Source: a virus. Taken from it: a stretch of 20,510 bases of DNA. Positions 831 to 17,956 of the stretch are shown here, one piece after another. Both the position numbers and the translations under genes were made by a program. Within the stretch, counting starts at the first letter, position 1, and each line of letters begins with the position of its first letter. The DNA is taken from IMG/VR virus record IMGVR_UViG_3300008448_000844, positions 1 to 20,510 of that record, one strand, 5' to 3'. The notes beneath the pieces were generated by a model. That model had not been told where the DNA came from. It made no database searches and saw nothing but the letters and a program-made list of their open reading frames with translations.

Positions 831-838
831 TATTTATT
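831..838 (-). promoter_or_regulatory. Late-type promoter octamer AATAAATA
   Basis: One mismatch to TATAAATA. It ends 5 nt before the ATG at 825, so the T4-type start site (about 6 nt after the octamer) would coincide with the A of the ATG. Identical spacing is seen at 11921-11928 and 13511-13518. Confidence 0.6.
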
Positions 839-857
839 GTTACAGGAATTCTAGAAG

Positions 858-2924: not shown

Positions 2925-3207
2925 GGTCTTTACTCAAGTTATATATTAGTATACATTGATCTAGTGCATGACGCAATGCCTCATTTGTTTGGGCTTCTCT
3001 TCGAATTTCTCCCCAAAGTTTACTTTCCATTATGTGACTGTGCAATGATCTTCCATCACCAGTTCTAGGATCAAAGTTTGGATCCTCTGGATCGTAGTCC
3101 CAACCAACAACTGTGCGTGTGCTAGGATCTGCACCAAATTCTCTAGAATACACAACGTTGTCGTGACGTTCGTATATTAATTTTGTGCCTGGTTTAAGTT
3201 GTCCCAT
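2914..3207 (-). CDS. Conserved hypothetical protein, 97 aa
   Basis: A small protein starting M-G-Q-L-K-P-G-T with 'IYERHDNVVYSREFGADPSTR' then 'VGWDYDPEDP', and a C-terminal helix 'LWGEIRREAQTNEALRHAL'. I recall similar small proteins in marine T4-like phages, always without function. There are no membrane segments or signal peptide. It starts 4 nt after the preceding gene ends (3212) and overlaps the next by 11 bp, so it belongs to the uvsW transcription unit. Confidence 0.75.
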   Translation of the reverse strand: MGQLKPGTKLIYERHDNVVYSREFGADPSTRTVVGWDYDPEDPNFDPRTGDGRSLHSHIMESKLWGEIRREAQTNEALRHALDQCILIYNLSKDHGT

Positions 3208-3211
3208 AATA

Positions 3212-3718
3212 TCACCAACATTTAGAATAATCTAATATCTCACTTTGACGACTGACTTCTTTAACAAAGTAAGCACATACTGGATTTTCTCCGGCATGTA
3301 ATGGAGTTGCCAATAATTGTCCAATACGCATTTTTGGAAAATACCATTTGACATCTTGATAAACATTGACAATGTCTACAGGATAAAATTCTGGTTTGAA
3401 ACTACTAAGTGGATTGAAAGTAAAAGCACTAAATCCCCTGTCATTCAAACTAGTAAGTGGTAGCACTTCCATTTCACCAGTACTTTCTGGATCGCCAACT
3501 ACCATGCACCAATCCAGTGGCATCTGAATTTGCCAAGGGCCAATTTGCAATACTGCCGCAGGACATGTAAATGATTCTAAAAAAATCAATGGTTGAAAAA
3601 AGTAATCTGGATTTTGATTGTCGCTGTTATCTAGTACAGCAAATCTACAGTCCTCGTCTACTTCTTCTGGTAGATCATTCAAATAGAATGTCTCATCTTT
3701 GAGTGTTAAAATTTGCAT
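3212..3718 (-). CDS. Conserved hypothetical protein, 168 aa, translationally coupled to uvsW
   Basis: The protein starts M-Q-I-L-T-L-K-D-E. It is acidic at the N terminus and beta-rich later ('AAVLQIGPWQIQMPLDWCMV', 'DVKWYFPKMRIGQLLATPL', 'CAYFVKEVSRQSEILDY'). I recognise it as a protein conserved next to recombination genes in marine T4-like phages, but not its function. The ATG shares one base with the uvsW stop (TAATG, bases 3720-3716), so translation is probably coupled to UvsW. No catalytic motif could be identified. Confidence 0.75.
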   Translation of the reverse strand: MQILTLKDETFYLNDLPEEVDEDCRFAVLDNSDNQNPDYFFQPLIFLESFTCPAAVLQIGPWQIQMPLDWCMVVGDPESTGEMEVLPLTSLNDRGFSAFTFNPLSSFKPEFYPVDIVNVYQDVKWYFPKMRIGQLLATPLHAGENPVCAYFVKEVSRQSEILDYSKCW

Positions 3719-5175
3719 TAATATTTCACCTTATCTATTGTAAATGGGTACTTTGCTTCTTTGTAGAATTTTTTACGTTCTGTTAAATGTCTTTTAGCGT
3801 ATTTGGTACTAGCAGTTATATCCCAAATTTGGACGAAGTCTTTGTCTTCCGCTTTTCTAATACCACGTCCAATAGATTGGATAACGCGGACAAAGCTCTT
3901 TCCGGGTTCAATAAGAACCAAATTAAAGATCCTAGGAATATTAAGGCCCACAGCGGCCACACCATAAGTCGCCACAATAATCTTATCATCACTTGTACGT
4001 ACTTCATCATATTCTGTTTTCCTGTCTTTTGTCTTTACAGTGCCATTAACAAAAACACTGTTCGGCAAATTTTCTGTTAAAAACTTTCCACACTCAATTC
4101 TATCAACTAGAACAAGCGTATTACCTGATTCGTTAATGCCAGCTATCATACCAGCAATATGTGCCAGTCTATCCTTGTCAGTTACTAGATATTTTAATTC
4201 TTCTGCGTAACCGCCAAACTCTTTCCATTCTTGTGTTTGGATAACATTAACATGACAATTAGCAAGATGGCCTGCCTCTTGTAGTTCATGTGCCGCAATT
4301 CCACCAACAACTGGTCCTAAACTTGCAACAATGCCCTCAAGTTCATAATGTGCCTTTGGTACTGTGCCTGTTAATCCCCAACGTATTGGACAATGTGCAA
4401 ATGCTCCTGTTAATAAATTTTTTAATACATCTGCTTTAGCCATATGTACTTCGTCAACAATAACACAAACAACGCCTTCAATAAACTCTAACAAGCTCAT
4501 TGCATCGTCTATTTCTTTACCCTTCTTTTCAAGGATATTAAGTGACTGCCAAGTGCAAATTGTGTGTGTCTTGTCTAAGTCTTTACGGTCACCATAATAC
4601 ACACCAACATCTAAACCAACGTTACGATAATCTTCTTCTGTTTGTTCTACAAGTCCTTTGTTTGGTACAATAACAAGTGTACGACCATATTTCTCACACA
4701 TATGACTCATTGTCGCAGTCATAATAGTTTTACCAGCACCAGTCGCAAGTTCCTGTATACTTTGAGGATTTTCAAAGAAACGATTAATTGCATCAGGCTG
4801 GTAATCACGCAACATAATGGGCTCGCCTTCTTTGACGTGTCCCTTAGGCCAAGTTTTACCTTTATCAGACCAATAAGATTCAGTTACTTTTTCAAACTCT
4901 AATTTAATTGGTTTACGTAAGTCTACTAAATCAATATCATATTTGTCTTGCTCAATAATTGGCAAAACTCTGTCTAGCATACTTAGATAAGTTGTACCAC
5001 CTAATCCAAAGAAGCTAACTGTCCCGTCCCAACGTCCTAATTTAAACGCAGGCATATGGCGTGCATACGGCAACTCGTACTTAAACTTAGACACTAATTT
5101 TTTTCTTGTGTCCAAGTCCAAGCCTTCAATTTTTACATTGACTTCATCTTTTAAAATTATTTTACAAGTTGACAA
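3718..5175 (-). CDS. uvsW: UvsW-type DNA/RNA helicase (superfamily 2)
   Basis: About 485 aa, close to T4 UvsW (503). After a short N-terminal substrate-binding domain ('AFKLGRWDGTVSFF', the counterpart of T4 'RFRYGNWDGRIRLL') come the SF2 motifs: 'MLRDYQ', Walker A 'ATGAGKT' (residues about 144-150), 'VDEVHMAK' (DExH, about 240), 'WGLTGT', and motif VI 'QSIGRGIRK'. In T4, UvsW unwinds branched recombination intermediates and R-loops, and it drives the switch away from origin-dependent replication. The frame is open to an ATG at 5265, but this would overlap the previous gene by 104 bp and prepend a hydrophobic stretch absent from the family. The preferred start is TTG at 5175, with AGAGG 6 nt upstream and a 14-bp overlap. 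Confidence 0.93.
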   Translation of the reverse strand: MSTCKIILKDEVNVKIEGLDLDTRKKLVSKFKYELPYARHMPAFKLGRWDGTVSFFGLGGTTYLSMLDRVLPIIEQDKYDIDLVDLRKPIKLEFEKVTESYWSDKGKTWPKGHVKEGEPIMLRDYQPDAINRFFENPQSIQELATGAGKTIMTATMSHMCEKYGRTLVIVPNKGLVEQTEEDYRNVGLDVGVYYGDRKDLDKTHTICTWQSLNILEKKGKEIDDAMSLLEFIEGVVCVIVDEVHMAKADVLKNLLTGAFAHCPIRWGLTGTVPKAHYELEGIVASLGPVVGGIAAHELQEAGHLANCHVNVIQTQEWKEFGGYAEELKYLVTDKDRLAHIAGMIAGINESGNTLVLVDRIECGKFLTENLPNSVFVNGTVKTKDRKTEYDEVRTSDDKIIVATYGVAAVGLNIPRIFNLVLIEPGKSFVRVIQSIGRGIRKAEDKDFVQIWDITASTKYAKRHLTERKKFYKEAKYPFTIDKVKY

Positions 5176-6337
5176 TGTCTGCCTCTGCTGATTTATGTTC
5201 GTTGTACTGCAAAGAAAAAATAGAATTTTTAACGGTATTGATAATACTGTAATGAGATGTAACATATCTGTTTACAAACAAACAGACATCAATATTGTGG
5301 TGATTTTTTAATAAACTTTTTGGAAATTTATTGCTCAAAAATACCCAATTGGGAGCAGAAGACGCTTCTTTATTCAAACCAAAGTCTTTAATCACTTTAT
5401 TAAAAGTGACGCCGTCCTCTTCATTTTTTCTTCTAAAAAATACGCCTATTTGATCTAAGCTAACTCCAACATTGATTAGATCACTAACCCATTCATTTAA
5501 AGTATCTGCACTAATATTTTCGTCAACAAATACAGCAGTATTCACGTTCATTTCTTTAATTAAAGAAAGAACTTCTGTCCTAGAGTGCTTTGCTTTGTCA
5601 ATAAAGAATTTTTGATTATGACTTTGTTCGTATATTTTGTACAAAGAATTTAATTTGATTAGTTCTGATATTTCATCAGCAACATTGTCTGCATAAATGT
5701 GAACACCTAATTTAGTACTTTCAATTAATGCTGATTTTAAATCGTTTGTTTCAAAATCACTCTTAATATTTTTAAATTTATAACTATCGTTTTCTTTTAT
5801 TAATGTTGGCACAAAATTTTCAAATTCATCTTTGATTTGATTATATTTGTCAATATAGTTTTTGATTTCGTCATCAATAACAAAACTATCAGACAAATTG
5901 TCTAATATAAAGGCCAAACTGACTTCGTTTAGATCCAGTGTCCAGTTTTTATTATCAGGATCCCATTCAGCTCTGGTGAGCTTTTCTTTAGTATTAAGTG
6001 TTCTAAACAATGTTAACAAATTTTGATCAAAGGGAAACTTAATAATAAATCTTTTAGAAATTGGATCTAATGTAACAGATTTTGTGTTATCAATAGTTCT
6101 TAAATTAAATTTATAAACTGGAGTCTCTAACATATTTTCTATGTCAGTGACGCCAATTTTTTTAAATTGATTTCGATATTTTTTGACAAGTCGTAAAGCA
6201 ATATCGGCCTGTTTATGCGTAAATGCTTTACCATTGAAAATTTGGTTAGCTAGACTTTGAGATATTTTTTCATCAAAGTTACTGACGTGTATACGTCCTA
6301 AACCAAACTGTTCGACTAAATCTTCAATATATTTCAT
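5162..6337 (-). CDS. HARP-like domain protein next to uvsW, motor-less helicase relative?
   Basis: A 391-aa protein with three regions. Residues about 20-60 ('SLANQIFNGKAFTHKQADIA...VKKY') resemble the short N-terminal helix region found in front of some phage SF2 helicases. Residues about 88-148 ('KRFIIKFPFDQ', then 'AEWDPDNKNWTLDL') have the pattern of the HARP/SMARCAL1 DNA-annealing domain, in which a pair of tryptophans frames a WxxxxKxW motif. The C-terminal part contains 'TAVFVDENISADTLNEWVSDL' and 'PNWVFLSNKFPKSLLKN', with a RecA-like alternation of strands and helices, but no Walker A or DExx motif is visible anywhere. It heads a seven-gene unit under a consensus promoter, with the ATG 6 nt after the -10 and no Shine-Dalgarno. 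The domain call is an inference from pattern; it may equally be a family of its own. Confidence 0.75.
   Translation of the reverse strand: MKYIEDLVEQFGLGRIHVSNFDEKISQSLANQIFNGKAFTHKQADIALRLVKKYRNQFKKIGVTDIENMLETPVYKFNLRTIDNTKSVTLDPISKRFIIKFPFDQNLLTLFRTLNTKEKLTRAEWDPDNKNWTLDLNEVSLAFILDNLSDSFVIDDEIKNYIDKYNQIKDEFENFVPTLIKENDSYKFKNIKSDFETNDLKSALIESTKLGVHIYADNVADEISELIKLNSLYKIYEQSHNQKFFIDKAKHSRTEVLSLIKEMNVNTAVFVDENISADTLNEWVSDLINVGVSLDQIGVFFRRKNEEDGVTFNKVIKDFGLNKEASSAPNWVFLSNKFPKSLLKNHHNIDVCLFVNRYVTSHYSIINTVKNSIFSLQYNEHKSAEADIVNL
5182..5186 (-). promoter_or_regulatory. Shine-Dalgarno supporting the TTG start of uvsW
   Basis: AGAGG on the minus strand, 6 nt before the TTG at 5175, inside the last codons of the upstream gene. 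It is the reason for choosing TTG rather than the distant ATG at 5265. Confidence 0.55.
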
Positions 6338-6343
6338 ACTAAT

Positions 6344-6372
6344 ATTATAGTTGATATTGAAGCGTTTGTCAA
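6344..6372 (-). promoter_or_regulatory. Perfect consensus sigma70-type promoter
   Basis: On the minus strand TTGACA (6372-6367), exactly 17 nt, TATAAT (6349-6344): a full consensus match. It lies in the 37-nt gap after uvsY. The predicted start site, 7 nt after the -10, is the A of the ATG at 6337, so the transcript of the HARP-like gene would have no leader. It probably serves early or middle expression by host RNA polymerase of the run from 6337 to 1216. Confidence 0.88.
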
Positions 6373-6374
6373 TA

Positions 6375-6827
6375 CTATAATGTAATGTCTTCCATTCCAG
6401 CAGTTCTTAGTTTAATGATATTACTCATTTGCCATTGCTTTATATCAAGGCTTTTGATAATACCCAACCATTTATTTCTAATCAATGCAAACTCATTAAT
6501 TAGCTTTTCAAAGTCAACTACGTCTGCTTCACCATCAACATATTTTTCTACGTCTCGACTGCTTAACGCTCTTTGATAATTTTCTAGATATTTTCTAAAT
6601 GTTTTACTACGTAGACGTCTAAGTTCTATATTAAGATATTCTAATATAGCTTCAATTTCTTGAAGTTGGTTGAATCTCTGCTCAACCACGCCTGGTAACT
6701 GAGCAGAGAGTTTTTCAATATTACCGTATATTTTACATTCTGTCTGTGCTTGAGCTAACTCATTATAGTAGTACTCAAGGCAAGCAGGTAGTTCAGAAAG
6801 ATCTTTACTTACCTTGTTGTACCACAT
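6375..6827 (-). CDS. uvsY: UvsY-type recombination mediator
   Basis: A 150-aa, highly helical, charged protein, near the size of T4 UvsY (137 aa). The C-terminal half ('RKYLENYQRALSSRDVEKYVDG', then 'LINEFALIRNKWLGIIKSL' and 'QMSNIIKLRTAGMEDI') follows the UvsY layout, and position supports it: it follows uvsX and the acidic small gene by 2 nt and precedes the uvsW unit, as in marine T4-like phages. In T4, UvsY loads UvsX recombinase onto gp32-covered single-stranded DNA. Sequence similarity to T4 itself is low, so the call rests on length, helical pattern and neighbours. Confidence 0.8.
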   Translation of the reverse strand: MWYNKVSKDLSELPACLEYYYNELAQAQTECKIYGNIEKLSAQLPGVVEQRFNQLQEIEAILEYLNIELRRLRSKTFRKYLENYQRALSSRDVEKYVDGEADVVDFEKLINEFALIRNKWLGIIKSLDIKQWQMSNIIKLRTAGMEDITL

Positions 6828-6829
6828 TA

Positions 6830-7075
6830 TTAGTCCTCGTCTTCGTAATATTCTTCATCTTCACCTTCGTCATCATAGCCTGCTTCCTCACGAAGTAGTG
6901 CTTTGATAGCTTCATCAAGATGATTATCAAGACCTTGCAAACCTTCTAGAGTGTCTGTACTAACATCATTATCAACTAAAAAGTCAACAAAATGATTAGC
7001 GGCAGTATCCATATTTTTTGCAGGGATATATTCTTTGAACAAGTCCCAGATTTCAATGATTAGTTGTTCTTCCAT
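6830..7075 (-). CDS. Small acidic protein between uvsX and uvsY
   Basis: 81 aa; a helical N-terminal part ('LIIEIWDLFKEYIPAKNMDTAANHF') followed by a very acidic tail (GYDDEGEDEEYYEDED). The genes on both sides are only 2 nt away, so it is co-translated with UvsX and UvsY. I recall a similar small acidic gene near recombination genes in marine T4-like phages, but with no established function. The tail could mimic nucleic acid or contact gp32/UvsX (inference only). It is not long enough and has no motif to call gp33. Confidence 0.75.
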   Translation of the reverse strand: MEEQLIIEIWDLFKEYIPAKNMDTAANHFVDFLVDNDVSTDTLEGLQGLDNHLDEAIKALLREEAGYDDEGEDEEYYEDED

Positions 7076-7077
7076 GA

Positions 7078-8139
7078 TTACGCATTTTCCTCTACAATAT
7101 CTTCAACCTCAGCTTTTGCCAGTGAAGTATTATAATTAGCCATAATGACATTAAGACCGTCTTTTTCGTTACGTTCCCACGCTTTACGGAATTGTTTAAT
7201 AATTTCGCCTTCAGGTGTTACATAAACAAGACTGTTACCTTCTTTCTTTAGAAGACCTTTACTTTCTGCAAGATCAACTAATCCACTAAACGGGCTCATA
7301 CCTGTTTCATATGGAATCTCAACCTGAACAGATTCAAAGGGTTTAGCATACCTTGTTTTCATAATCTTACAAGCGGCACGAATACCGTTAACTGTGGTAG
7401 TCTTATTACCATCAGCATCTGTTTTAAGTTTTAACTTACGCATAGCAACAACAATACTAGATGCATAAATGAAACCTTGACCACCACTGATCTTGTCATC
7501 AGGGTCAAACATATCTTGGCTTGCGTATGTGTGATTGGTTGCTACCAATCCCACGTTATAACTACCAAACATATTAACACAGTTACGAACAAGTGCTGTC
7601 AGTGCTTTAGGCTTACGACCCATGTCACCTTTCAAATCACCTGCTTCAAATTGATTAATATCAGTTGGAGTCAGCAACATGCCCAATGAGTCAATAACAA
7701 ACAATACTTTTGGTCTGTTACCATCTTCCATTGTTTTGTACTCTTTCATGAATTCGTGAATAGTTTTTGCCACGTCATCAATCATAGCCATGTTAAGTTT
7801 GAGCAGTTTGTCTTCACTAGTATCTACACCAAGTGCGTGTAGCCATGCTTCATCTAGTGCGTTTTCACTGTCAATTAGAACAACATAAATGCCTTGTTCT
7901 TGTGCGTGTCTTACAATGTTGCCTGAGCAAATATAAGATTTACCTGCACCACTTTCACCAGCAAATACAGTAACTTTACCAAGAGGAATACCTTTGTTAA
8001 AATCGCCACTGATCAGGTAGTTGAGTGCATAATTACCTGTTGAAATCCAGTCTGTAGGATCGTTAAAACCAACACCAAGCCCGTCAATAGACTTAGTGAG
8101 GGTTTTACGAAACTTCGAGACATCAAATGCCTTACCCAT
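7078..8139 (-). CDS. uvsX: UvsX RecA-like recombinase
   Basis: 353 aa (T4 UvsX is 391). Walker A 'GESGAGKS' at residues 61-68, a RecA-type acidic motif 'VVLIDSENALDEAW', Walker B 'KVLFVIDSLGML' about residue 145, and 'GLVATNHTY' corresponding to the motif after L1. 'KISGGQGFIYASSIVVAMRK' covers the L2 region. It catalyses strand invasion on single-stranded DNA covered by gp32, with UvsY as loader, for recombination-dependent replication. A strong Shine-Dalgarno (AGGAGG at about 8148-8153) lies in the 19-nt gap after gp32, so it is expressed in one unit with gp32, the acidic protein and UvsY. The C terminus is shorter than T4's and ends in an acidic 'EVEDIVEENA'. Confidence 0.96.
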   Translation of the reverse strand: MGKAFDVSKFRKTLTKSIDGLGVGFNDPTDWISTGNYALNYLISGDFNKGIPLGKVTVFAGESGAGKSYICSGNIVRHAQEQGIYVVLIDSENALDEAWLHALGVDTSEDKLLKLNMAMIDDVAKTIHEFMKEYKTMEDGNRPKVLFVIDSLGMLLTPTDINQFEAGDLKGDMGRKPKALTALVRNCVNMFGSYNVGLVATNHTYASQDMFDPDDKISGGQGFIYASSIVVAMRKLKLKTDADGNKTTTVNGIRAACKIMKTRYAKPFESVQVEIPYETGMSPFSGLVDLAESKGLLKKEGNSLVYVTPEGEIIKQFRKAWERNEKDGLNVIMANYNTSLAKAEVEDIVEENA

Positions 8140-8158
8140 TCGTAAACCCTCCTAATTA

Positions 8159-9157
8159 TTATTCTGATTTATTTTGACGTGCGCGAATTGCGGCTAAAAT
8201 GTCTTGAGCACGTTCGCTACCGCTACCACTTGCTGGTGCTGAAGCTTTTGTGCTTGGTTCATCTTCCCACGGTGCAGTCTCTGCCTTTTCAGCTTTTGGT
8301 GCAACTTTAGGCGCCGCATCAACTGCGCCAACATCTGCTTCTGCATCGTTGCTACGACCACTACCAGTCATACCTGCTGGTTTGAAGTACTGACCCCAAC
8401 GGTCCATGTCAAATGCTTCGCCATCAACAGATGCTTCAAACATCTCTTTGATAACTTTCAATTCAACATCTGTTGGCTTCTTAGGAAGGAAGTCACGTAG
8501 ATTGAAAAGACCTCTTTCTTTTACTGCGCTTTGTTCGTCATCACTAAGAGCACGTTCACGACGTCCCCACTTACTTGTGGAGTAATCAGCATAACCACCT
8601 TTAGTTGTTTTAACGATTTTGAAGTCAAGACCACGAACGTAGTCTGTTGGCAATTCTTCAATTTCATTATCCATCAACGCACCTTTAATAATATTAAAGA
8701 TTTGTGGACCAATAATAAAACGACGAATTGGATTTTCTGGAGTTCTATCTTCTTTGAACTTGCCAGCGTCAACAACAAAACCTTGGAATACGTAAGACTT
8801 TTTCTTCCAGTACTTACGACCCATATCTTCCAAACTCTTATCCTTGAACCAAGGACGTACTTCAGTTAGAATTGGGCAAGTTTCACCCCACATTTCCATA
8901 CAAGGAACTTGTACAGTAACAGGACGTGAATCTGTTTGACCTTTGATGCCAGCAAATGGCAACTTGATCATGGCACGTTCTGCCCAAAAGAAAGTATTGT
9001 TTGGATCGTTGTCTGGAAGGAAACGGACAGTTACTTCTTGTCCTTCTGCAATATTCCAGTGTGGGAAAATGGCGTTGTCGCCACCTGTTTGACTACCGCC
9101 TGACTGACGGTTATTTTGTTCTTGAAGCTTTGCTCTAATTTCTGCTAAAGATGCCAT
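8159..9157 (-). CDS. gp32: gp32 single-stranded DNA-binding protein
   Basis: 332 aa, with the three-part layout of T4 gp32: a short basic N terminus for cooperativity ('LAEIRAKLQEQ'), a core with the marine-phage blocks 'PWFKDKSLEDMGRKYWKKKSY', 'PENPIRRFIIGPQIF' and 'LPTDYVRGLDFKIVKT', and a low-complexity Ala/Glu/Pro-rich tail ending 'AQDILAAIRARQNKSE'. It coats single-stranded DNA in replication, recombination and repair, and contacts UvsX, UvsY and the replisome. The zinc site looks reduced: C86 and C94 are present, but the position of the last T4 cysteine (C-P-x-C) is leucine (CPIL). A strong Shine-Dalgarno (TAAGGAG) lies 7-8 nt upstream. It heads the recombination unit and is transcribed from a promoter at 9237-9265 through a structured leader. 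Confidence 0.95.
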   Translation of the reverse strand: MASLAEIRAKLQEQNNRQSGGSQTGGDNAIFPHWNIAEGQEVTVRFLPDNDPNNTFFWAERAMIKLPFAGIKGQTDSRPVTVQVPCMEMWGETCPILTEVRPWFKDKSLEDMGRKYWKKKSYVFQGFVVDAGKFKEDRTPENPIRRFIIGPQIFNIIKGALMDNEIEELPTDYVRGLDFKIVKTTKGGYADYSTSKWGRRERALSDDEQSAVKERGLFNLRDFLPKKPTDVELKVIKEMFEASVDGEAFDMDRWGQYFKPAGMTGSGRSNDAEADVGAVDAAPKVAPKAEKAETAPWEDEPSTKASAPASGSGSERAQDILAAIRARQNKSE

Positions 9158-9182
9158 AATGTTTCTCCTTATAATATGCCTT

Positions 9183-9220
9183 TAGTTTGCCTTTATTTGT
9201 CTGTGCCACTACACAAACAA
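9183..9220 (-). promoter_or_regulatory. Hairpin and possible pseudoknot in the gp32 mRNA leader
   Basis: In the minus-strand RNA, TTGTTTGTG (9220-9212) can pair with CACAGACAA (9205-9197): 9 bp including one U-G pair, with loop UAGUGG. The loop bases UAGU can pair with ACUA at 9186-9183, which gives an H-type pseudoknot. An A-rich, G-poor stretch and the Shine-Dalgarno follow. T4 gp32 represses its own translation by binding a leader with a pseudoknot next to an unstructured A/U-rich segment; the same design here is an inference from layout. Confidence 0.5.
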
Positions 9221-9251
9221 AAAGCGCATACGTTTAATTGTATGCGCTTTT
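9220..9251 (-). terminator. Rho-independent terminator of the late unit
   Basis: A perfect 12-bp inverted repeat (AAAAGCGCATAC / GTATGCGCTTTT) with an 8-nt loop, lying 28 bases beyond the stop of the 878-aa gene. On the minus strand the GC-rich stem is followed by TTTTTG, a short U tract. It separates the late terminase unit from the gp32 unit and overlaps the gp32 promoter. Confidence 0.8.
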
Positions 9252-9265
9252 ATTTATCTTGTCAA
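9237..9265 (-). promoter_or_regulatory. Sigma70-type promoter for gp32, nested in the terminator
   Basis: TTGACA (9265-9260), 17 nt, TACAAT (9242-9237) on the minus strand. The -10 lies in the left arm and loop of the terminator hairpin, and the start site (about 9231-9229) lies past the loop. The gp32 transcript therefore carries only the second arm and cannot form the hairpin. The leader is about 72 nt. A late-type octamer GATAAATA (9258-9251) also lies in the spacer; whether it is used is unknown. Confidence 0.75.
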
Positions 9266-9278
9266 CTGGAATTTAGGA

Positions 9279-11915
9279 TTAGATTCCGGCTAACTTTTTC
9301 AAATCAATTACTTCGCCTGTTTGTTTATTTGATTGAGATTTTGTGCCTATTCCAGCTAATTTCTTTAAGTCGATAAAATCAGTACTTTCATTGACCTTCA
9401 TAGTTTTTACTGGAGACTTATTAATAGCTACTAATGCGCTATCTCTTTTCACTTGTCCACTTAACACTTTAATATCTTCAAACATTTGTGCTTCGTGACT
9501 TTGTGAGGCTAGTTTTTGAATTAAACGTTCTGCAAGTTGTCCTGCCTTGTCGCCAAATTCTTTTTCAACTTTAATTTTGACACCTGTTTCGCCTAATGGG
9601 AAATTGCCTGTGTTACGGTCATAAAAGCCCATAATAAATTCTGCAATTTCTTTCATTGGTGCTCCACCAGATTTTTTCTTTTCATCTGTTTGTAGTTCTT
9701 CACCTTCATCTACATCTGCACCAAAACCTGTAGTGTCTTGTTTAATACCACCACTCTTTGCCTTATTGCGTAGATTGGAAATAAATTGTGCATCGTCATC
9801 TTCTTCACTGCCTTTAATGCCACGTAGTTCTGCATCAATGTCCGCATCGCTCATTGCTGAACGTTTTGGTGCTTCATTTGATCCAGTAATGCGACTCCAT
9901 GCGGTCATTGTTTTTTCATCACTTACACCTAACATTGGCAATGTATTGAAGAATTCTTGTTCAACTTCTTCTGGCTGTACTTCGCCACTTTTAATTGCGC
10001 GAGCAATGTTTTGTAGATATTCCATTGCGTGACGTTTTTCTTCTGGAGTTTGATCCATATTTTCTCTTGTAATAGGTGTGTGACGATTTGGGTCAAGTAT
10101 ATGATCTGGTTTTTCTTTGCCTGGATTTACCATATAATCTTGTGCGTCCTTTTCTGCTTTTTCTGCTTTTTCTTTGTCGTTGTAATATTTTCCACCAGCA
10201 GCCACACCAGCACCAGTTACACCAAGTCTTGTTACTGGATTAAAAGCAAAACTAGTAATAGCTTTATCTGCTAAGTCGCCTACTGCACTGCCTAATTTAC
10301 CAACTGATTTTGTCCAATGTTCTTGTACTTCAGATTGCTGTGATTCATGCAAACTGTCAAAAACTAATTCATGTAGTAGATCACCATGCTCGTCTCTTAA
10401 CATTTCTAACTCTTCATCAGACATGTCCGACCCATCTTCAAATTGTCCGTCACTGAAATATGCATCTGAAAAATCTGGATAATCCCTAGTATCAACACCG
10501 TCAACTTGCAGACTGTTTACATCAACTTCTTTTCCATTAATAGTGATGCCTTGTTGCATACCTTCTTGAACAGGTGTTTGTTGTACATCCAATGCGTTAT
10601 AAATTTCTGGTTGGAATTTGCTTAAGAATTCCATTACAACGTCGGCTGCGTTTGCATCTGGACCTTGTTGTTCTGCCAGTTGTGCCAACTGAATTTTAGT
10701 TGCATCTGGAACATCAATGCCTAATTCTTCTAGTGTGCCTGTTACATTGTCCCCATTGAGTCCAACAGGGAAATGCTCACTTAATAATTCGCCTAATTTT
10801 GAAAGATCTTCAGGATCTAATCTAGTTTCTACTAATGTATGTGCCCAATCATAAAATACACTCTCTGGTGTTAGGGTTGCTACATCTTCTAAACTTAATT
10901 CTGGTGTTTGGTCTTCTAATTGAGCAACTTCTTCTAAATCAATTTCATTTTCCTGCATGATACGATGTAACAATGGGAAAACTTCTGCAATGTCTTCTTT
11001 AAAACTTTTAACAGTAAATTTATCTTTATAATCTTCTAATGTGATGTCATCAATTAAAGGCATGTCACCGCTCATACCTGATTCACATTCTTGTTTAAAT
11101 GCCTCATAATGATGTTGCATACTTATTTTATTGATCTTATCTTTCAACTCTTGAAGTTTAACTTGTGCTCGTTCAACTATGTTGCTAGTTCCACTATTCA
11201 TTAGGTCTTCACGGTAGACATAGTTTTTAAAGTTTGATAACTTAGCCATGTCTTCGCTCATCTGTATAATTTTTTGACCAACTGGATCATGAGGATATCC
11301 TTCATTTGCCACGTGACGTTGCATTGCCTTTGCACCAGCCAAATGTTTAAATGGATATTTGAACCTTTCTCCTGAAGCGTTTTCAATAAACAGACTTTCT
11401 AAATTTCTACTTCTTGCGCCTGGAATTGATTCGTCTACTGGTTTGCTGTGACGAATAATTAGTTTGGTTCTTTGTAATGCTTCTAGAGGTCTATAACTAG
11501 TGCGACTAGTGCCTCTCATCATTGATTCACTCATAACAGGTCCTTTATTGGCCAAATAGCCATAATCTCTTTTATCTAAATTTGTTTTGCTGATATCTCT
11601 AGTATCAAAGCTCATTAATCTTTTCATGGCAAATTTTCTCATTTCTCTTAGGAAAGAATACCAAGTTTTAGAAGTTAACTCGTCAGCATCTTCTAATATG
11701 TTCTTGTTAAAATATAATTTTAAGCTGCCTGGCTCGTTGATGCTAATGCTAACTGTGCCTAAATTGCTTTCATTAAAAATTGCGTCAAAATCAAAGAATC
11801 TGCCCTTGGCAGCTTCAAATGTGGACTGCCCGCTCTCATCGCCCATCTCCATTTTAGGGAATCGGCTACGTATCTTATAGAACAGGTCTTGGGCAATAAT
11901 ATCTTGATTAATCAT
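9279..11915 (-). CDS. Large conserved virion protein (possible internal head/ejected protein)
   Basis: 878 aa. Residues about 50-260 form the conserved part ('TWYSFLREMRKFAMKRLMSF', 'NLDKRDYGYLA', 'MSESMMRGTSRTSYR', 'GERFKYPFKHLAGAKAMQRHV'), a signature I recall from T4-like marine phages, annotated without function. The middle is acidic and helical. A Gly/Ala-rich hydrophobic stretch ('VTRLGVTGAGVAAGG', about residues 555-573) follows, then a charged coil and disordered tail. The motif IDLKKLAGI occurs twice at the C terminus (848-856 and 870-878). The gene follows gp17 by 18 nt and is last in the late unit before the terminator. A late-type octamer CATAAATA stands 5 nt before the ATG, with no Shine-Dalgarno. 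An internal or DNA-ejected head protein is plausible, but unproven. Confidence 0.8.
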   Translation of the reverse strand: MINQDIIAQDLFYKIRSRFPKMEMGDESGQSTFEAAKGRFFDFDAIFNESNLGTVSISINEPGSLKLYFNKNILEDADELTSKTWYSFLREMRKFAMKRLMSFDTRDISKTNLDKRDYGYLANKGPVMSESMMRGTSRTSYRPLEALQRTKLIIRHSKPVDESIPGARSRNLESLFIENASGERFKYPFKHLAGAKAMQRHVANEGYPHDPVGQKIIQMSEDMAKLSNFKNYVYREDLMNSGTSNIVERAQVKLQELKDKINKISMQHHYEAFKQECESGMSGDMPLIDDITLEDYKDKFTVKSFKEDIAEVFPLLHRIMQENEIDLEEVAQLEDQTPELSLEDVATLTPESVFYDWAHTLVETRLDPEDLSKLGELLSEHFPVGLNGDNVTGTLEELGIDVPDATKIQLAQLAEQQGPDANAADVVMEFLSKFQPEIYNALDVQQTPVQEGMQQGITINGKEVDVNSLQVDGVDTRDYPDFSDAYFSDGQFEDGSDMSDEELEMLRDEHGDLLHELVFDSLHESQQSEVQEHWTKSVGKLGSAVGDLADKAITSFAFNPVTRLGVTGAGVAAGGKYYNDKEKAEKAEKDAQDYMVNPGKEKPDHILDPNRHTPITRENMDQTPEEKRHAMEYLQNIARAIKSGEVQPEEVEQEFFNTLPMLGVSDEKTMTAWSRITGSNEAPKRSAMSDADIDAELRGIKGSEEDDDAQFISNLRNKAKSGGIKQDTTGFGADVDEGEELQTDEKKKSGGAPMKEIAEFIMGFYDRNTGNFPLGETGVKIKVEKEFGDKAGQLAERLIQKLASQSHEAQMFEDIKVLSGQVKRDSALVAINKSPVKTMKVNESTDFIDLKKLAGIGTKSQSNKQTGEVIDLKKLAGI
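9282..9374 (-). repeat. Duplicated IDLKKLAGI motif at a protein C terminus
   Basis: Two identical nonapeptides, separated by 13 residues, end the 878-aa virion protein. The DNA of the two copies differs at several codon positions, so it is the peptide that is conserved, not a recent duplication. A looser relative (ADILKLSG) occurs in the 437-aa protein. Confidence 0.8.
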
Positions 11916-11920
11916 AATGA

Positions 11921-11928
11921 TATTTATG
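11921..11928 (-). promoter_or_regulatory. Late-type promoter octamer CATAAATA
   Basis: One mismatch to the T4 late core. It lies in the 18-nt gap between gp17 and the 878-aa gene, ending exactly 5 nt before the ATG at 11915. The predicted start site is the ATG itself. Confidence 0.65.
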
Positions 11929-11933
11929 CTTTC

Positions 11934-13505
11934 TTAGTTTATGAATATAGGCATGGGCATTATGGTTTCTTCAGTGTTTCTTAGGATATCGTAGACTGAA
12001 GGATCCCAGTCACTGAGAACTCCCATCATTCTAACACATAATAACATGCTCATTACAAGGTCATCATGATCCCCGTTTTTTGCCTCAAAACTGCTGCCTG
12101 AAGCAACAAACGATTTTAGTTGACTCACTAGAGATTTGCTCTTTATTTCTATGGTTTTATTTTCTACTAGTTGCTTGAATTTAGCGCAGGCAGCAATTTT
12201 AGCATTGTGCGTGGTGTTAAATCCTTTACGGAATTTACGAACATGCCCTCTTCTAATAGGTTCGCTGATAAACAATCCTTGTATATTATCTTCGCCAATT
12301 TCATTAATAGCTACCAATGCGGCTTCGCCTACTGTGTTGTTTTCCACACTGTAATAGACTTTGGGACTGTCTATTCCCCCTCCTGCTTCTTCACTGATAT
12401 ACTTGCAGATGTCTCTCATTATTCTAACCTGTTGCTGTATAGGAGTCATATTATGTTGCCACTCTGCAATTTGTTTCATGCCAGGAATTTCAAATACTTC
12501 TATACCAGAATAGTCGCCGCCAGTTCCTAAACTTGGATCCAATGCCACAAGATATGACTTACCTTTTTGTATTTTGCCATACCAACGAACCTGTCCCATA
12601 CGCATAACTGGTTCTACACCTTCCATCTCTGCTAGAACTAATGCGCTAATCAATGTTTCATCAAAGATAATAAATTCGCATTCGTGTTCACGACGGAAAC
12701 GTTCTTCGCCAATACGTGCTCGTTCTTCAGAAGCCCATTTTTCATCTCTATCAGGGTGCTCACTCCAATGTGCTCTAAATGGATGAAACCCGTTGATACC
12801 AACATCTTTCTCATCACCGTATTCATCAAATAATTTGTTGGCTTCTTTCCATATTGTAGCAAATTGGTCTTCGTCGCTGTTAGGAGTGCTGGTAATAATT
12901 GCTTTACCACCAGTGCTCAACGTTGGGGAGATAGAAGTCCAGAATTCACTAGCAATGTTTGGTGGGACGAAGGCAAACTCATCACAATATAATAATGAAA
13001 TAGCCATACCACGACCTGTATTACTGGTTGTAGTTTGACTTACTATTCGACTACCATTGTCAAATTCAATACTGCCTTTATTATAACTTGTAACACCTGC
13101 ACGTAGAAAGTCAGGACATAGTTCGTAGGCATAACGAACACGTTGCATGATTTCCTGCGCACCTGAATATTTGTGTGCGGCAACTAGGATTGTGCTATCT
13201 GGTATGAACATAGCATACCAAAGCAAATACCCTGCTGCCGTAGTTGTTTTACCAGTTTGACGTGGCATCATGTTTACATTAAATCTGTAATCATGATAAC
13301 TGTGTAAAAGTTTAACTTGAAAGTCAAATGGCTCAAATAGCATTTGACCTTTGGTTGGGTGCTGTATGTAAAAGAAATTACGAATAAAGTATTCGGGTCC
13401 CGTAATAGGATCCGCACACAACAGCATCTGTTGTATTTCTTCTTCAGTCCACTTTTGCCTTATGTGGGCTTTTTTAATTAATACGCCTTCTAAGCTCTTT
13501 GCCAT
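11934..13505 (-). CDS. gp17: Terminase large subunit, gp17
   Basis: 523 aa; packages DNA into the prohead using ATP and cuts the concatemer. ATPase domain: Walker A 'MPRQTGKT' (80-87), Walker B 'LLYCDEF' with D175/E176, coupling motif 'TSTPN' (205-209). Nuclease domain of RNase H fold: D323 in 'VALDPSLGTGGDYSG', E388 in 'YSVENN', and 'GDHDDLVMSML' near residue 475, corresponding to the T4 catalytic triad D401/E458/D542. T4 gp17 is 610 aa; the shorter length is mostly at the N terminus. It follows a UACG-loop hairpin and a late-type octamer AGTAAATA 5 nt before the ATG, without Shine-Dalgarno. Unlike T4, it is not next to gp16: four virion genes (about 5 kb) lie between. Confidence 0.97.
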   Translation of the reverse strand: MAKSLEGVLIKKAHIRQKWTEEEIQQMLLCADPITGPEYFIRNFFYIQHPTKGQMLFEPFDFQVKLLHSYHDYRFNVNMMPRQTGKTTTAAGYLLWYAMFIPDSTILVAAHKYSGAQEIMQRVRYAYELCPDFLRAGVTSYNKGSIEFDNGSRIVSQTTTSNTGRGMAISLLYCDEFAFVPPNIASEFWTSISPTLSTGGKAIITSTPNSDEDQFATIWKEANKLFDEYGDEKDVGINGFHPFRAHWSEHPDRDEKWASEERARIGEERFRREHECEFIIFDETLISALVLAEMEGVEPVMRMGQVRWYGKIQKGKSYLVALDPSLGTGGDYSGIEVFEIPGMKQIAEWQHNMTPIQQQVRIMRDICKYISEEAGGGIDSPKVYYSVENNTVGEAALVAINEIGEDNIQGLFISEPIRRGHVRKFRKGFNTTHNAKIAACAKFKQLVENKTIEIKSKSLVSQLKSFVASGSSFEAKNGDHDDLVMSMLLCVRMMGVLSDWDPSVYDILRNTEETIMPMPIFIN

Positions 13506-13510
13506 AACTT

Positions 13511-13518
13511 TATTTACT
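13511..13518 (-). promoter_or_regulatory. Late-type promoter octamer AGTAAATA
   Basis: Two mismatches to TATAAATA, so weak alone, but it ends exactly 5 nt before the gp17 ATG, as at 825 and 11915, and it directly follows the hairpin at 13526-13545 that would isolate this unit from upstream transcription. Confidence 0.5.
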
Positions 13519-13525
13519 GAAACAA

Positions 13526-13545
13526 ATAGGCTCCGTAGAGCCTAT
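13526..13545 (-). terminator. UACG-tetraloop hairpin between structural gene and gp17
   Basis: A perfect 8-bp stem (ATAGGCTC / GAGCCTAT). In the minus-strand RNA the loop is UACG closed by C-G, a member of the very stable UNCG tetraloop class. It is followed by TTGTTTC, a poor U tract, so it may be a partial terminator, an mRNA 3'-end stabiliser or a processing site. It lies in the 65-nt gap before gp17. Confidence 0.6.
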
Positions 13546-13570
13546 CTGAAACTTCCTTTTAAGGAATTAA

Positions 13571-13978
13571 TTAAGCAGTTGTAAAGGATGTTGCATCAGC
13601 TACAGTAGTTCCACTGATATCTTTATCATTTGGTCCAACGCTAGTAACAGAATAGGTAAATGTGCTAACACCTGTTCTAACAGCAGTAGAGTCAGCACCA
13701 ATTTGACGAATTCTATGCTGTAGATCTGCGGCACTGGCATTGTAATCCATAACTAGATAAATCTTACCAGTATTGTCATTAGCAACAAAAAATGCCAATG
13801 GGTTAACTTCTCTAACTATTTGTTCAACTGTTTCTTCAACTGTATCATCTTCTGCACTAATATCTACAGCAGTACCGCCAGTGTTTTTTACTGTGCAAAG
13901 AAATAATTTGCTGTTTAATGGGTAAATGGTTCCAGCTGTGCAAGCTAGTCCATTAATTCTTGTAAATCCGGCTGACAT
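13571..13978 (-). CDS. Small virion structural protein, possible capsid decoration
   Basis: 135 aa, beta-rich, Thr/Ala/Val-rich, with only three lysines. It starts 'MSAGFTRINGLACTAGTIYP', continues 'EDDTVEETVEQIVREVNPLAFFVANDN' and ends 'DISGTTVADATSFTTA'. The composition and placement among head genes suggest a capsid-associated or decoration protein, but no known family is certain. A strong Shine-Dalgarno (AAGGAG) lies in the 10-nt gap upstream. The UACG hairpin follows it, so it may be the last and most abundant gene of its unit. A tail-fibre or neck role cannot be excluded. Confidence 0.75.
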   Translation of the reverse strand: MSAGFTRINGLACTAGTIYPLNSKLFLCTVKNTGGTAVDISAEDDTVEETVEQIVREVNPLAFFVANDNTGKIYLVMDYNASAADLQHRIRQIGADSTAVRTGVSTFTYSVTSVGPNDKDISGTTVADATSFTTA

Positions 13979-13988
13979 TTAGTTCTCC

Positions 13989-15302
13989 TTATTGACCGTT
14001 TTTAAATTGGGTGTATGCTTGTAGTAGGCTCTCTTTAGTCATTACTGGAAAACCTTTTGGCATAGTGCCATCCATTCTGTCGCCTACATCAACTGCATTA
14101 GGCTGGTAAGCATGAGCATTTGTATCTAACTCTGGTACCTCTCTTGGATCTTTAGGAGTATTGCCATACTCTTCTTCCATACTGCCAGTTAATGTTTCTT
14201 TATCATCGTGGTCGTGATCATGATGATGACTATTCATGCTATCTGAATCACCACGAGAAATGATATCAATTGCTTTAACAATCGGCATTGGAGGCATTGG
14301 GGAGGATCCCAACATATCGCCTGTTACAGGTTTAACTCCTGCTAGATTCATAATAGCTGCCAACATATTAGCAACTTCTTGTCCGTTGCCAGCAGTGGCA
14401 TTAATACTTAAACTGGCTGTTTGATTTGGTGTGCTAGGCATCATTCCACATTCTTCCAATTGAGTTGATTCATGCAGTGCTACGATTTCTTTTGGTTTAA
14501 TAATGCCTGCAATATTGTCGCGTTCTGTAATTGACTTTTGACCAGATAATTTTAAAATATCAGCAATACTTTCTTTAGTGGTTTCTGGTTCTACTTGTCT
14601 ACTATCGCTAGCGTCTCGTCTTTCCCCTTCTTGTCCGGCACCATCTACTGGTGTATCACCTGCATCTCGATCTTTAAATGCTCCTTGTGCTATGCCAGCC
14701 GGAGTGCCAAATATCTTACGTGCCCCTGCACCCACTATATCGGTTCCAAGATCAACTAGACTATCACCTGTAGGATCTGCCTCTGAGCTTGTTGCGGCTC
14801 GGTAACCTAATTCTGCTGTGCCAACTGGTGCAGACCATTGCCAAATACTTTGAGAAGTAGGATCTGGTTTATCTACCTTTGCAGGAGTTACTATTTTACT
14901 GGCAGCATCTTTCTTAATTGCGTCTTGCCTTCCAACTATATTGTCAAGTCTAGAAGTGTCGCGACCACGAGTAGTTAGCTTATCTCGCATTTTGTCTAAC
15001 TTGTCAATTCGAGCATCTGCTTTATCTTGTCTTGCTACTTGAGCAAGATTTTTTTCTGCTTGTTTTTCTGCGGCCGCTACCTGAGTTTTGTAGGTATCAA
15101 GAACTCCGCCTGGCTTTGAATCGGCACTGGAATAAGTTGTTTTAATATCTTTGTTCCAAATCTGTCTTGGATCCATTTTTTTAACTTGATTGCTTAGCCA
15201 TTCACCACTAGCACCAAGTAAGTCGCTAGTTGCTCCTGCAAGTTTGGCTGTTTTTTCAACTTTTTTAGCTGGGCCTTCGTTCATCAATTCATTCATTTTC
15301 AT
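13989..15302 (-). CDS. Putative internal head protein with leader peptide, 437 aa
   Basis: The N terminus 'MKMNELMNEGPAKK' resembles the short capsid-targeting leader of T4 internal proteins (MKTYQEFIAE), which is removed by the gp21 protease after x-x-E. The rest is low-complexity and charged, with a basic coiled region (about 80-140), a Gly/Ala segment 'DLVDLGTDIVGAGARKIFG' (about 176-196), the motif 'SIADILKLSGQKS', an ordered-looking block 'SLSINATAGNGQEVANMLAAIMNLAGVK', a His/Asp cluster HHHDHDHDD (14202-14228), and the ending 'ESLLQAYTQFKNGQ'. I recall the 'ECGMMP...SLSINA' arrangement from marine T4-like phages. It is 8 nt after the 881-aa gene. The internal head role is inferred from leader, composition and location; there is no enzymatic motif. 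Confidence 0.75.
   Translation of the reverse strand: MKMNELMNEGPAKKVEKTAKLAGATSDLLGASGEWLSNQVKKMDPRQIWNKDIKTTYSSADSKPGGVLDTYKTQVAAAEKQAEKNLAQVARQDKADARIDKLDKMRDKLTTRGRDTSRLDNIVGRQDAIKKDAASKIVTPAKVDKPDPTSQSIWQWSAPVGTAELGYRAATSSEADPTGDSLVDLGTDIVGAGARKIFGTPAGIAQGAFKDRDAGDTPVDGAGQEGERRDASDSRQVEPETTKESIADILKLSGQKSITERDNIAGIIKPKEIVALHESTQLEECGMMPSTPNQTASLSINATAGNGQEVANMLAAIMNLAGVKPVTGDMLGSSPMPPMPIVKAIDIISRGDSDSMNSHHHDHDHDDKETLTGSMEEEYGNTPKDPREVPELDTNAHAYQPNAVDVGDRMDGTMPKGFPVMTKESLLQAYTQFKNGQ
14202..14228 (-). repeat. His/Asp-rich cluster coding segment
   Basis: Codes for HHHDHDHDD in the 437-aa protein. Such clusters bind divalent metals in other proteins; no such role is shown here. Confidence 0.6.
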
Positions 15303-15310
15303 AATAATTC

Positions 15311-17956
15311 TTACCTTCTAGATAAATGTTTAATTCTTTCTAACTCAGAAGATGGATCTTCTTTAACAGCGCGAGCAACATTTGTTGCCATTGCTGCCGC
15401 ATCTCTTTTATTGACATCTCCTAGTTTATCAGCGGCCCATTGCACACCGTCACCAGCTTTGTCAACTCCAGCAGAAAATGCAATATCTCCTGCTAGTGCT
15501 TTTCCACCACCTTTTAATAAATCTGCTTTGCTATTAGCTTGATTTGCCAGTGCTCTAGCTTCTGGACTAGTTGCTACAGCTTTTACTCCTTGTGCAACAT
15601 TTTTGCCACCTTGATAAGTCTTATGTAACATATTAGCTAAACGACCACCACGGGCAACAGCCGCTGTGCCTGCAATAGGTGCGGCTAATCCGCCAGTTGC
15701 GTAGGTTGCTAGGGCACCAAGACCTGTGATTCCAGCATCAATGGCTAGATCCTTATAATCATAATCAAAGTCTGGATGTAGTCTGTCACTCATACTCCAT
15801 TCTATCAGTTCGTCTTTTAAAGAGTTTAATTGCAAAGACATTTCTTTTAAAGTTAGATCTTCCTTGACACTACCAGCGGCATGTTGGAGTGCTGGCGCAA
15901 TGTCCTTCCCATCTTTTTGATCCTGTGCAATCATTTTTTGTAAATCGTTGGCACTTATTGTTGTTAAATCAATGTTACCTGGTGTAGAAGATTTTGTTCG
16001 TAGTCTATTACCAGTATTTTGAGATGATTGATCAGCAGGCTGTCCTCTAAGGGCTTGTAATCTAGCAAGATCATCTGCGCTAATTATTTGCGATCTTTGT
16101 CTATCATAGATTGCTTTGCCTTCTGCACTATCACTTGCAGGACCAATCCATCCAAGACCTGGACGCTCTTTGAATCCTTGTCCTGCTACTGTATCATCAA
16201 TCTCCCAGCTACCATGCACTGGATGTTGACCAGCGGGGGCGGCACGCCATCTCATTACATTACCAGTCTTAGGATCAACATCTCTGTCACCTTGTTTTAA
16301 ATCAAAATGGCTTTTTTTCATGTTACCTGTGGAAACTCGAAGAGAACTAGGATCAGATGATCCATATCTTGCCATTAAGTCTTTGTCTCGTTGTCTACCT
16401 TGAGCCGCTGCCAAATCGTCTAATCTTTTCTTTTCGGCTGCTAGAACTTCTTGATCTTTTCTTTCTTGTTCTTGTTTAGCATCGTCTGCCGCACGTTGTT
16501 CTGGAGTCCTTGGTACTAGACTAAAATCTGTTTTGGGCATTTCTGGGACTACATACTTACCGTCTTTATCAAATGTCATGGTAGTACCATCTTTAAAATG
16601 AACGGTTCTACCTTTTCCTTCACCTGGCACTATTTTAGCTACGTCTTTTTCATCATAAAAGGTATTGGTGCCGCCAGTAGCACTTGGAACAACAGCGGCC
16701 TGGGCAGCACCATTGCCGCCACCACCAGTAGTTACAGTAGCAGTGCCATCTACCTTGCCATCTACCTTGCCATCTACCTTGCCATCACCTCCACCGCTAG
16801 GATTTTGTCTAAAGTGAGCTAATAATGCTAGATTTGCTGCCGCGGTGCCTGCGGTATATTTTCCTTTACCTAATATAGAATCAACTTTCTCTTGATTTAA
16901 TCTATCAGTTCTATTTTTAAATGCACCATTACTTGCTAAGGCTAGTTGTGCTCCTACACTTGTTCCTGTAGACGTGCCAGTACTTGCACCGCCTGCATCA
17001 TTTTTACCGCCTTTACCGTCTTTACCGTCTTTACCGCCTTCAGCTTCCCTACGTTTCTTTTCTTCGGCTGCGGCGGCTTCTTTTCTTTTCCTTTCAGCTT
17101 CAGCATCCTCTTCTCTTTTTTTCCTTGCGGCTTCTTCCTCTTCTCTTTTTTTCCTTGCGGCTTCCTCTTCATCTTTTTTCTTTTTTGCGTCAGCTGAATT
17201 TGTATCAGATGCTGGAGGACGTTCTTGTGCCGAACTATCAGCTGACGCCCCTCGCTTAGGATCAGCGGCCTTGGCTAGTTTCCATGTATTTGCATCAAGA
17301 TTGTCTACAATTTGTTGTCTCAAATTTTCATCCGATACTTTCCATATATCGCCTGGATTTTTTTTAACGTGAGCAATGTAAGCTCTCATTCTTCTAGCAT
17401 CAGCACTATCACCGGTAGCAACGTCTTTATACGATTTGACGGTGTCCTTTCTATCTCTAATTATTTCCCACCATTCTTTTCTTCTTGCTTCTTCTAGTGG
17501 TTCACCTGGCTTAGGTGTGTCAATTTTTCTAGGACCTTGTTCAACATCTTTTTGTTGTTGTACACTAGCACTGGTGTTAGGTTGTATAGTTGGCTGTGAA
17601 GGCTGTGTTCGTTGACCAGCAACTGCTCCTAGAGCCGCCTTCATAAGTTCAATGTCTTTTTTTGGATCACTATATTTGGCTGGCTCAGCATCTGGCTTTT
17701 GATTTGGAAACTGTAGTGCCTTTAATTGTTCTGGCGACAACTGATTAGGTTTATCGTAATCTGGTTGTTTGCCAGGAATTTTGTCTTGTGCATTAGGAGA
17801 AATTGAAGTAGGATTTTGATCAACTTCAGAACCTGTTGGACTAGTACCCTGCATCTTTGACATTTTATTTGCCATTACCAGATCTGGCATTGACATCTTA
17901 TCTGGCATTGACTGATCTAATTCATCTAATCTAGTAAAGAGTTCTCTAAAATTCAT
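15311..17956 (-). CDS. Large low-complexity virion protein with leader peptide, 881 aa
   Basis: The N terminus 'MNFRELFTRLDELDQS' looks like a capsid-targeting leader with a possible protease site after LDE (residues 10-12). A disordered Pro/Gln/Lys region follows, then a small folded block around 'RRKEWWEIIRDRKDTVKSYKD', a strongly charged helix of repeated AARKKREEE units (about 255-294), a short Gly-rich collagen-like run (GKDGKDGKGG), four VDG/GK units (16745-16786), another charged coil, and a Gly/Ala-rich hydrophobic segment 'AIDAGITGLGALATYATGG' (about 743-762), ending 'SSELERIKHLSRR'. There is no enzymatic motif. Three copies of the same design (leader, coils, Gly/Ala segment) in this region suggest internal head or DNA-ejected proteins. 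The ATG follows the 194-aa gene by 2 nt. Confidence 0.78.
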   Translation of the reverse strand: MNFRELFTRLDELDQSMPDKMSMPDLVMANKMSKMQGTSPTGSEVDQNPTSISPNAQDKIPGKQPDYDKPNQLSPEQLKALQFPNQKPDAEPAKYSDPKKDIELMKAALGAVAGQRTQPSQPTIQPNTSASVQQQKDVEQGPRKIDTPKPGEPLEEARRKEWWEIIRDRKDTVKSYKDVATGDSADARRMRAYIAHVKKNPGDIWKVSDENLRQQIVDNLDANTWKLAKAADPKRGASADSSAQERPPASDTNSADAKKKKDEEEAARKKREEEEAARKKREEDAEAERKRKEAAAAEEKKRREAEGGKDGKDGKGGKNDAGGASTGTSTGTSVGAQLALASNGAFKNRTDRLNQEKVDSILGKGKYTAGTAAANLALLAHFRQNPSGGGDGKVDGKVDGKVDGTATVTTGGGGNGAAQAAVVPSATGGTNTFYDEKDVAKIVPGEGKGRTVHFKDGTTMTFDKDGKYVVPEMPKTDFSLVPRTPEQRAADDAKQEQERKDQEVLAAEKKRLDDLAAAQGRQRDKDLMARYGSSDPSSLRVSTGNMKKSHFDLKQGDRDVDPKTGNVMRWRAAPAGQHPVHGSWEIDDTVAGQGFKERPGLGWIGPASDSAEGKAIYDRQRSQIISADDLARLQALRGQPADQSSQNTGNRLRTKSSTPGNIDLTTISANDLQKMIAQDQKDGKDIAPALQHAAGSVKEDLTLKEMSLQLNSLKDELIEWSMSDRLHPDFDYDYKDLAIDAGITGLGALATYATGGLAAPIAGTAAVARGGRLANMLHKTYQGGKNVAQGVKAVATSPEARALANQANSKADLLKGGGKALAGDIAFSAGVDKAGDGVQWAADKLGDVNKRDAAAMATNVARAVKEDPSSELERIKHLSRR
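16745..16786 (-). repeat. 12-bp tandem repeat, 3.5 copies
   Basis: The unit GCCATCTACCTT on the plus strand is repeated exactly at 16745, 16757 and 16769, with a half copy at 16781. It codes for GKVD units in the 881-aa protein. Perfect identity indicates recent slippage, so copy number may vary between relatives. Confidence 0.95.
17003..17038 (-). repeat. 9-bp repeats coding a collagen-like Gly-Lys-x run
   Basis: Four 9-bp units (TTTACCGCC or TTTACCGTC on the plus strand) code for a GGKDGKDGKGGK stretch, a minimal Gly-x-y repeat. Confidence 0.85.
17106..17164 (-). repeat. 30-bp direct repeat coding a charged helix
   Basis: A 29-base identical segment occurs at 17106-17134 and 17136-17164 (period 30), coding AARKKREEE-type decapeptides of a predicted single alpha helix or coiled coil in the 881-aa protein. 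Confidence 0.85.

Follow-up and report, generated by a model that had tools for sequence, protein, structure and literature searches.

The window analysed here is a 20,510-nt stretch, a 20.5-kb virus record that is itself a fragment of the genome of an uncultured T4-superfamily phage. Its nearest named gp32 relatives are Sinorhizobium phage Phosso, the PA5oct-like phages and Atu_ph07, with genomes of 280–490 kb. The minus strand is home to the main genes of the window:

8159–9157, minus strand: gp32, single-strand DNA binding protein (phrog_1192, 1.3e-65)
9279–11915, minus strand: virion structural protein, the gene upstream of gp32 and last of the packaging/structural unit (phrog_13484, 3.6e-14; similar gene order in isolates)
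11934–13505, minus strand: terminase large subunit
minus strand: UvsX, a UvsY-like protein and a UvsW-like helicase

In all nine isolates examined, terminase is likewise followed by one or two structural or hypothetical genes and then by gp32; Kaldavass has two extra tiny ORFs between terminase and gp32. The promoter/terminator block that is the subject of this work occupies the gap separating the structural unit from gp32.

Some further features of the window were recorded. Residues 209–249 of the structural protein (9279–11915) match the late sigma family phrog_234 weakly (5.4e-5), which may be chance. Its C-terminus (window 9279–9375) contains a repeated DLKKLAGI, and many relatives have, by eye, a similar LAGLAK ending. 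Several proteins encoded at 13989–18543 begin with short motifs like MKTLKDYITES or MNFRELF, which we take to be reminiscent of T4 capsid-targeting sequences. A perfect TTGACA-17-TATAAT promoter lies at 6344–6372 on the minus strand, directly before a 391-aa ORF. An Rfam search gave no match within the window.

The block spans 46 bases, and its elements and those of the gp32 leader that follows it are:

9260–9265, minus strand: TTGACA, −35 hexamer of the sigma-70 promoter predicted to drive gp32 early; TTG is invariant in 25 aligned relatives with a U-run, rows that were chosen for carrying the composite
9251–9258, minus strand: late-promoter octamer GATAAATA in the promoter spacer; the predicted late +1 is the 6th base after the octamer, the G at 9245
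9237–9242, minus strand: −10 hexamer TACAAT, split equally between the 5′ arm and the loop; spacer 17
9240–9251, minus strand: 5′ arm of the 12-bp terminator stem, AAAAGCGCATAC (fold and covariation)
9220–9231, minus strand: 3′ arm of the stem, GTATGCGCTTTT, the sole arm in the predicted early RNA (fold)
9215–9223, minus strand: U-run of the putative intrinsic terminator, TGTTT directly after the 3′ arm (terminator exclusivity in relatives)
9226–9245, minus strand: predicted 5′-terminal hairpin of the late gp32 mRNA, GCAUAC/GUAUGC, 6 bp from +1 (folding and stem-start statistics)
9158–9219, minus strand: gp32 leader, in which a second hairpin directly follows the U-run and two AGGCA repeats precede the Shine-Dalgarno

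Scans of window positions 1–20000 ranked both main elements highly. The gp32 promoter matches the consensus at 11 of 12 bases, has a 17-bp spacer and is among four sites scoring 11–12/12, and the block stem is the top terminator-like site. The latter consists of 12 Watson-Crick pairs (−16.2 kcal/mol, z −5.2, 0/200 shuffles as good) with UGUUU next, that is, a stable GC-containing stem directly before a U-run, as in an intrinsic terminator. The −35 and −10 hexamers are conserved and lie at the 16–18 bp of a sigma-70 early promoter. The overlap of a TTGACA-17-TACAAT promoter with a 12-bp terminator stem, as described in the first-pass annotation, was confirmed in coordinates and letters: the promoter lies at 9265–9237, the stem with its U-run at 9251–9220. 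In the leader, the second hairpin (within 9190–9219) has, by eye, a counterpart at the same place in many relatives. The AGGCA repeats, with a mean of 1.97 copies in the last 75 nt of gp32 leaders vs 0.05 in shuffles and about 15 nt apart, are a possible gp32 autoregulatory site.

We then considered the block across relatives. A scan with the gp32 of the window yielded 80 contigs; once the hits of four more scans with relatives, the isolates and the window itself were added, the set comprised 358 loci, of which 352 had a gp32 start and 337 had 110 nt upstream. Dropping identical last-110-nt regions left 238, and later counts are subsets of these: the 172 with the composite, or fewer with enough sequence (77 + 92 for terminator exclusivity). 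The composite, a −35-like hexamer, TAAATA in the spacer and a −10 with a joint score ≥8, was present in 172 of the 238 distinct gp32 upstream regions vs 1.8% of dinucleotide shuffles. The spacing of −35, octamer and −10 is fixed among these relatives, the spacer being 17 in 154 of the 172 composites. The loci are related rather than independent, forming 25 gp32 clusters, 15 of which contain at least one composite. The composite is missing in 8 of the 9 isolates examined, Atu_ph07 passing weakly; Phosso has TATAAATA and TACAAT, plus a separate terminator-like hairpin farther upstream. Among the 66 of 238 loci without the composite in this form, a looser promoter search found a U-run stem in 42, and in 38 of these 42 the octamer lies upstream of the −35 and ends 26–27 nt before the start of the −10. 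This octamer-upstream set (a subset of L252–L369) keeps a terminator over the −10; by eye, pairing of the inferred late 5′ end frequently spans the entire terminator.

When terminators were sought blind to promoters in the last 130 nt of the 238 relatives, 87 were found, and a promoter −10 (score ≥8) lay over 86 of them. Random 20-nt windows in those upstream regions overlapped a −10 in 428/1190 cases, a background that is high since the promoter itself lies in these regions. Stems kept without the promoter hexamers, which according to the first-pass annotation would speak against the arrangement, were looked for in this way and are nearly absent. Across six records, a promoter scoring ≥9 overlapped 9 of 192 terminators, two of the nine at gp32.

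The terminator role was addressed by looking for a second terminator nearby. The 75 nt preceding the −35 hold a separate terminator in 3 of 77 U-run loci vs 41 of 92 loci without a U-run (hereafter no-U loci; Fisher p 3e-10); in one no-U spacing class, mostly TAGACA, none of 20 had a separate one in these 75 nt. On this pattern and its own structure, the block is very probably the operon terminator in the window, and the proposal that a terminator and the gp32 sigma-70 promoter share one block is supported. It had also been suggested that the arrangement isolates the gp32 unit from late read-through. The exclusivity of the terminator agrees with this, but isolation is not the sole job of the stem, since the stem persists in relatives without a U-run.

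To follow how the stem itself is kept, we aligned the window with 35 of 55 U-run loci, hand-picked for diversity, and retained the 25 of these 36 rows near one stem register; the other 11 were left out because their pairs fall in other columns. (A further alignment, with 16 of the 28 loci in a single no-U spacing class, contributes to no counts.) In the 25 relatives, 98.3% of pair cells are standard, and two-sided changes occur in 27 cells vs 9.1 in shuffles (0/500), with slid controls far lower. Mismatches in the stem core of U-run loci are G.U rather than A.C in a ratio of 32:1 (G.U and A.C scored alike; p 8e-9); in no-U loci the ratio is just 25:11 (p 0.03). Of the 92 no-U stems, only 39 did better than all 30 of their shuffles. 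Because the stem covaries and tolerates G.U and not A.C, it is kept as sense RNA. A sense-strand A.C is an antisense G.U, and therefore it is in RNA transcribed in the direction of gp32 that the hairpin counts. For U-run loci we reject a DNA cruciform on this ratio, and the hairpin extrusion in supercoiled DNA put forward in the first-pass annotation is not supported.

The octamer in the spacer had been mentioned only as an aside. Our analysis indicates that it is probably a true T4-type late promoter, with its +1 at the base of the stem core: GATAAATA is a TATAAATA-like octamer of the kind found in such promoters. In 320 kb of a near relative, 33 of 59 ATAAATA sites are intergenic, in a sequence about 7% intergenic by a crude gene model, compared with 5/56, 14/69 and 17/68 for control words. 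At 51 of the 54 [AC]TAAATA sites listed for this relative, the next gene is on the same strand. Over five records and the window, an ATG stands exactly at nt 6 after [AC]TAAATA at 24 of 133 intergenic sites, with 5 at nt 5 and 6 at nt 7; among 150 coding sites used as a control, nt 5 had 9 and nt 6 had 8. Examples are positions 44060, 69440, 162007 and 243182 of record G001. Since the T4 late octamer spans −13 to −6 (PMC1524935; PMC2988020), nt 6 corresponds to +1 and genes with an ATG there look leaderless. Leaderless late mRNAs are thus probable in this jumbo-phage lineage, which may reuse elsewhere, for such mRNAs, the +1 position seen at gp32. A C precedes TAAATA in 55 of the 172 blocks, and CTAAATA is the late motif reported for Aeh1 (PMC1524935). 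T4 gp55 homologues were found in three of five records (G001, G002 and G003; E 3e-8 to 2e-6), while the same search found none in G004 and G005, possibly fragments.

The stem is positioned with respect to this octamer. In no-U loci, the best stem begins at nt 4–6 after the octamer in 76 of 92 cases (null 12–18%). With the octamer 3, 4 or 5 nt downstream of the −35, the lock holds in 20/27, 35/42 and 20/22 loci, respectively; these differing distances shift the octamer relative to the −10, and the stem start follows the octamer. The lock is found in 10 of 12 clusters. In U-run loci, the stem mostly extends back to nt 1 or 2 after the octamer, because the A-run pairs with the U-run.

Whole leaders were then folded from the inferred +1. 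The probability that +1 is paired exceeded 0.5 in 61/65, 8/8, 27/28, 18/33 and 16/22 leaders, and in 19/32 loci with the octamer upstream of the −35 (nulls 18–35% in both cases). The late leader of the window (−23.1 kcal/mol, z −4.5) folds with a 6-bp hairpin beginning at nt 1 and another hairpin further on, and leaves the ribosome site open. In this predicted fold the 5′ end is paired from the first nucleotides, as in a stabilising 5′-terminal hairpin. The remnant stem that a late RNA would hold has 6 bp and −6.1 kcal/mol and stops two bases from the U-run, compared with −16.2 for the full stem. Among long-leader late promoters, 13 of 29 have a hairpin at p ≤0.05, five of the 13 being gp32, vs 7 of 150 coding controls. 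A general rule that all long-leader late RNAs begin with a hairpin at +1 was rejected, the other eight hairpins lying at varied offsets.

Taken together, we lean slightly towards a three-in-one junction between the late structural operon and gp32, in which terminator, early promoter and late promoter share the same bases. Read-through RNA from the structural genes would hold the full 12-bp stem and the U-run and be terminated. Early in infection, host sigma-70 polymerase on TTGACA-17-TACAAT would start near 9229–9232, beyond the 5′ arm, so that the early gp32 RNA should be unable to form the hairpin; this start beyond the loop is a prediction that follows from sigma-70 geometry. Late in infection, a gp55-type sigma on GATAAATA in the spacer would start at 9245, the base of the stem core. 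Because the stem left in the late RNA is just the inner 6 bp and stops two bases before the U-run, this RNA should escape termination, although it could still terminate there, and it would thereby gain a 5′-terminal hairpin. The likely benefit would be a late gp32 mRNA shielded from 5′-end-dependent decay. Gp32 is required in stoichiometric amounts from early through late infection. RppH and RNase E depend on single-stranded 5′ ends and paired ends resist (PMC3997798); this dependence, together with the stability of the T4 gene 32 mRNA, makes protection a natural guess. It is a tentative proposal, to which we give somewhat less than even weight, that promoter choice in the overlapping block determines whether a gp32 mRNA has a protected 5′ end from the outset, and that in this clade the hairpin which terminates the upstream late operon lets the late gp32 RNA pass because the late start has cut it short.

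Other readings of the block have to be weighed against this three-in-one junction. An intrinsic terminator and an early promoter might simply share DNA for economy, TAAATA arising incidentally from the A-rich sequence that flanks the terminator. Neither the terminator exclusivity nor the stem covariation requires a late promoter, and the A-run does pair with the U-run; but TAAATA is retained in loci without a U-run, in 38 of the 42 loci of the further set it is found on the upstream side of the −35 and so apart from the stem, and the motif is late-promoter-like genome-wide. We regard this two-element version as unlikely. It is less probable still that the inverted repeat covering the −10 acts as a DNA operator, to which a phage repressor dimer binds to shut the early promoter, and that it became a terminator later in one clade. 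Such an operator would fit the dyad that covers the −10 in no-U loci and the ratio of just 25:11 there, and is hard to reconcile with the G.U bias of 32:1 in U-run loci, with half-sites that vary between clades (e.g. GCGCATA, TGTATATTA and ACGTATACT) and with a stem edge that follows the octamer and not the −10.

The late promoter could also be attenuated, RNA from 9245 being mostly terminated at the U-run to give a short RNA and keep gp32 low late. In the U-run clade the hairpin and U-run indeed fall within ~30 nt of the inferred late start. We nevertheless consider attenuation very improbable, as the remnant stem has 6 bp and −6.1 kcal/mol and ends two bases from the U-run, and the hairpin is kept without any U-run in other clades. 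Translational effects were also considered. In the early leader fold, the free 3′ arm pairs with GCAUAU shortly before the Shine-Dalgarno, suggesting early repression. A translation switch was rejected, however: over five groups with 152 distinct leaders in all, the ribosome site was paired to about the same extent in the early and the late RNA.

Several known systems resemble the proposed junction in part. PeSLs (promoter early stem-loops) occur as repeated, recombining copies in hyperplastic regions. They are reported from T4-like phages as composites that join an early promoter to a stem-loop terminator (Arbiol 2010; Comeau 2014). The gp32 block likewise combines an early promoter and a terminator stem-loop in one small unit, but it is fixed at a core-gene junction, carries a late octamer in the spacer and has a stem that survives without a U-run. 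In the leader of T4 gene e (lysozyme), read-through RNA forms a hairpin, and transcription from a late promoter begins within its 5′ arm, so that early and late RNAs fold differently (PMC3014915). A late start within a hairpin arm is what we predict for gp32; in gene e, however, the hairpin hides the ribosome site and the late RNA loses it, whereas the late gp32 RNA would keep a terminal hairpin, with the ribosome site equally open in both RNAs. T4 gene 32 itself is transcribed under temporal regulation, has a structured leader and gives the most stable mRNA of T4 (PMC3014915, section 24). T4 relies on RNase E cleavage at −71 and a pseudoknot, while our block predicts a primary 5′ end that is already paired. 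Escherichia coli ompA and papA have 5′-terminal stabilising stem-loops on single-promoter leaders. The predicted paired 5′ end is similar, but at gp32 the presence of the hairpin would be set by promoter choice. Our literature search, which mostly covered less than full texts, did not find a late start at the base of a hairpin common to an early promoter and a terminator. Within that coverage, promoter-terminator composites are already known as PeSLs, and the late start at the hairpin base appears to be new.

If the proposed working of the junction is true, it would be a compact route to two mRNAs of differing 5′ structure from one gene, with a terminator in the same bases, and start sites would be predicted to the base across many uncultured phages. 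The 6-nt distance from octamer to +1 would moreover provide a handle, from sequence only, on late start sites in this lineage.
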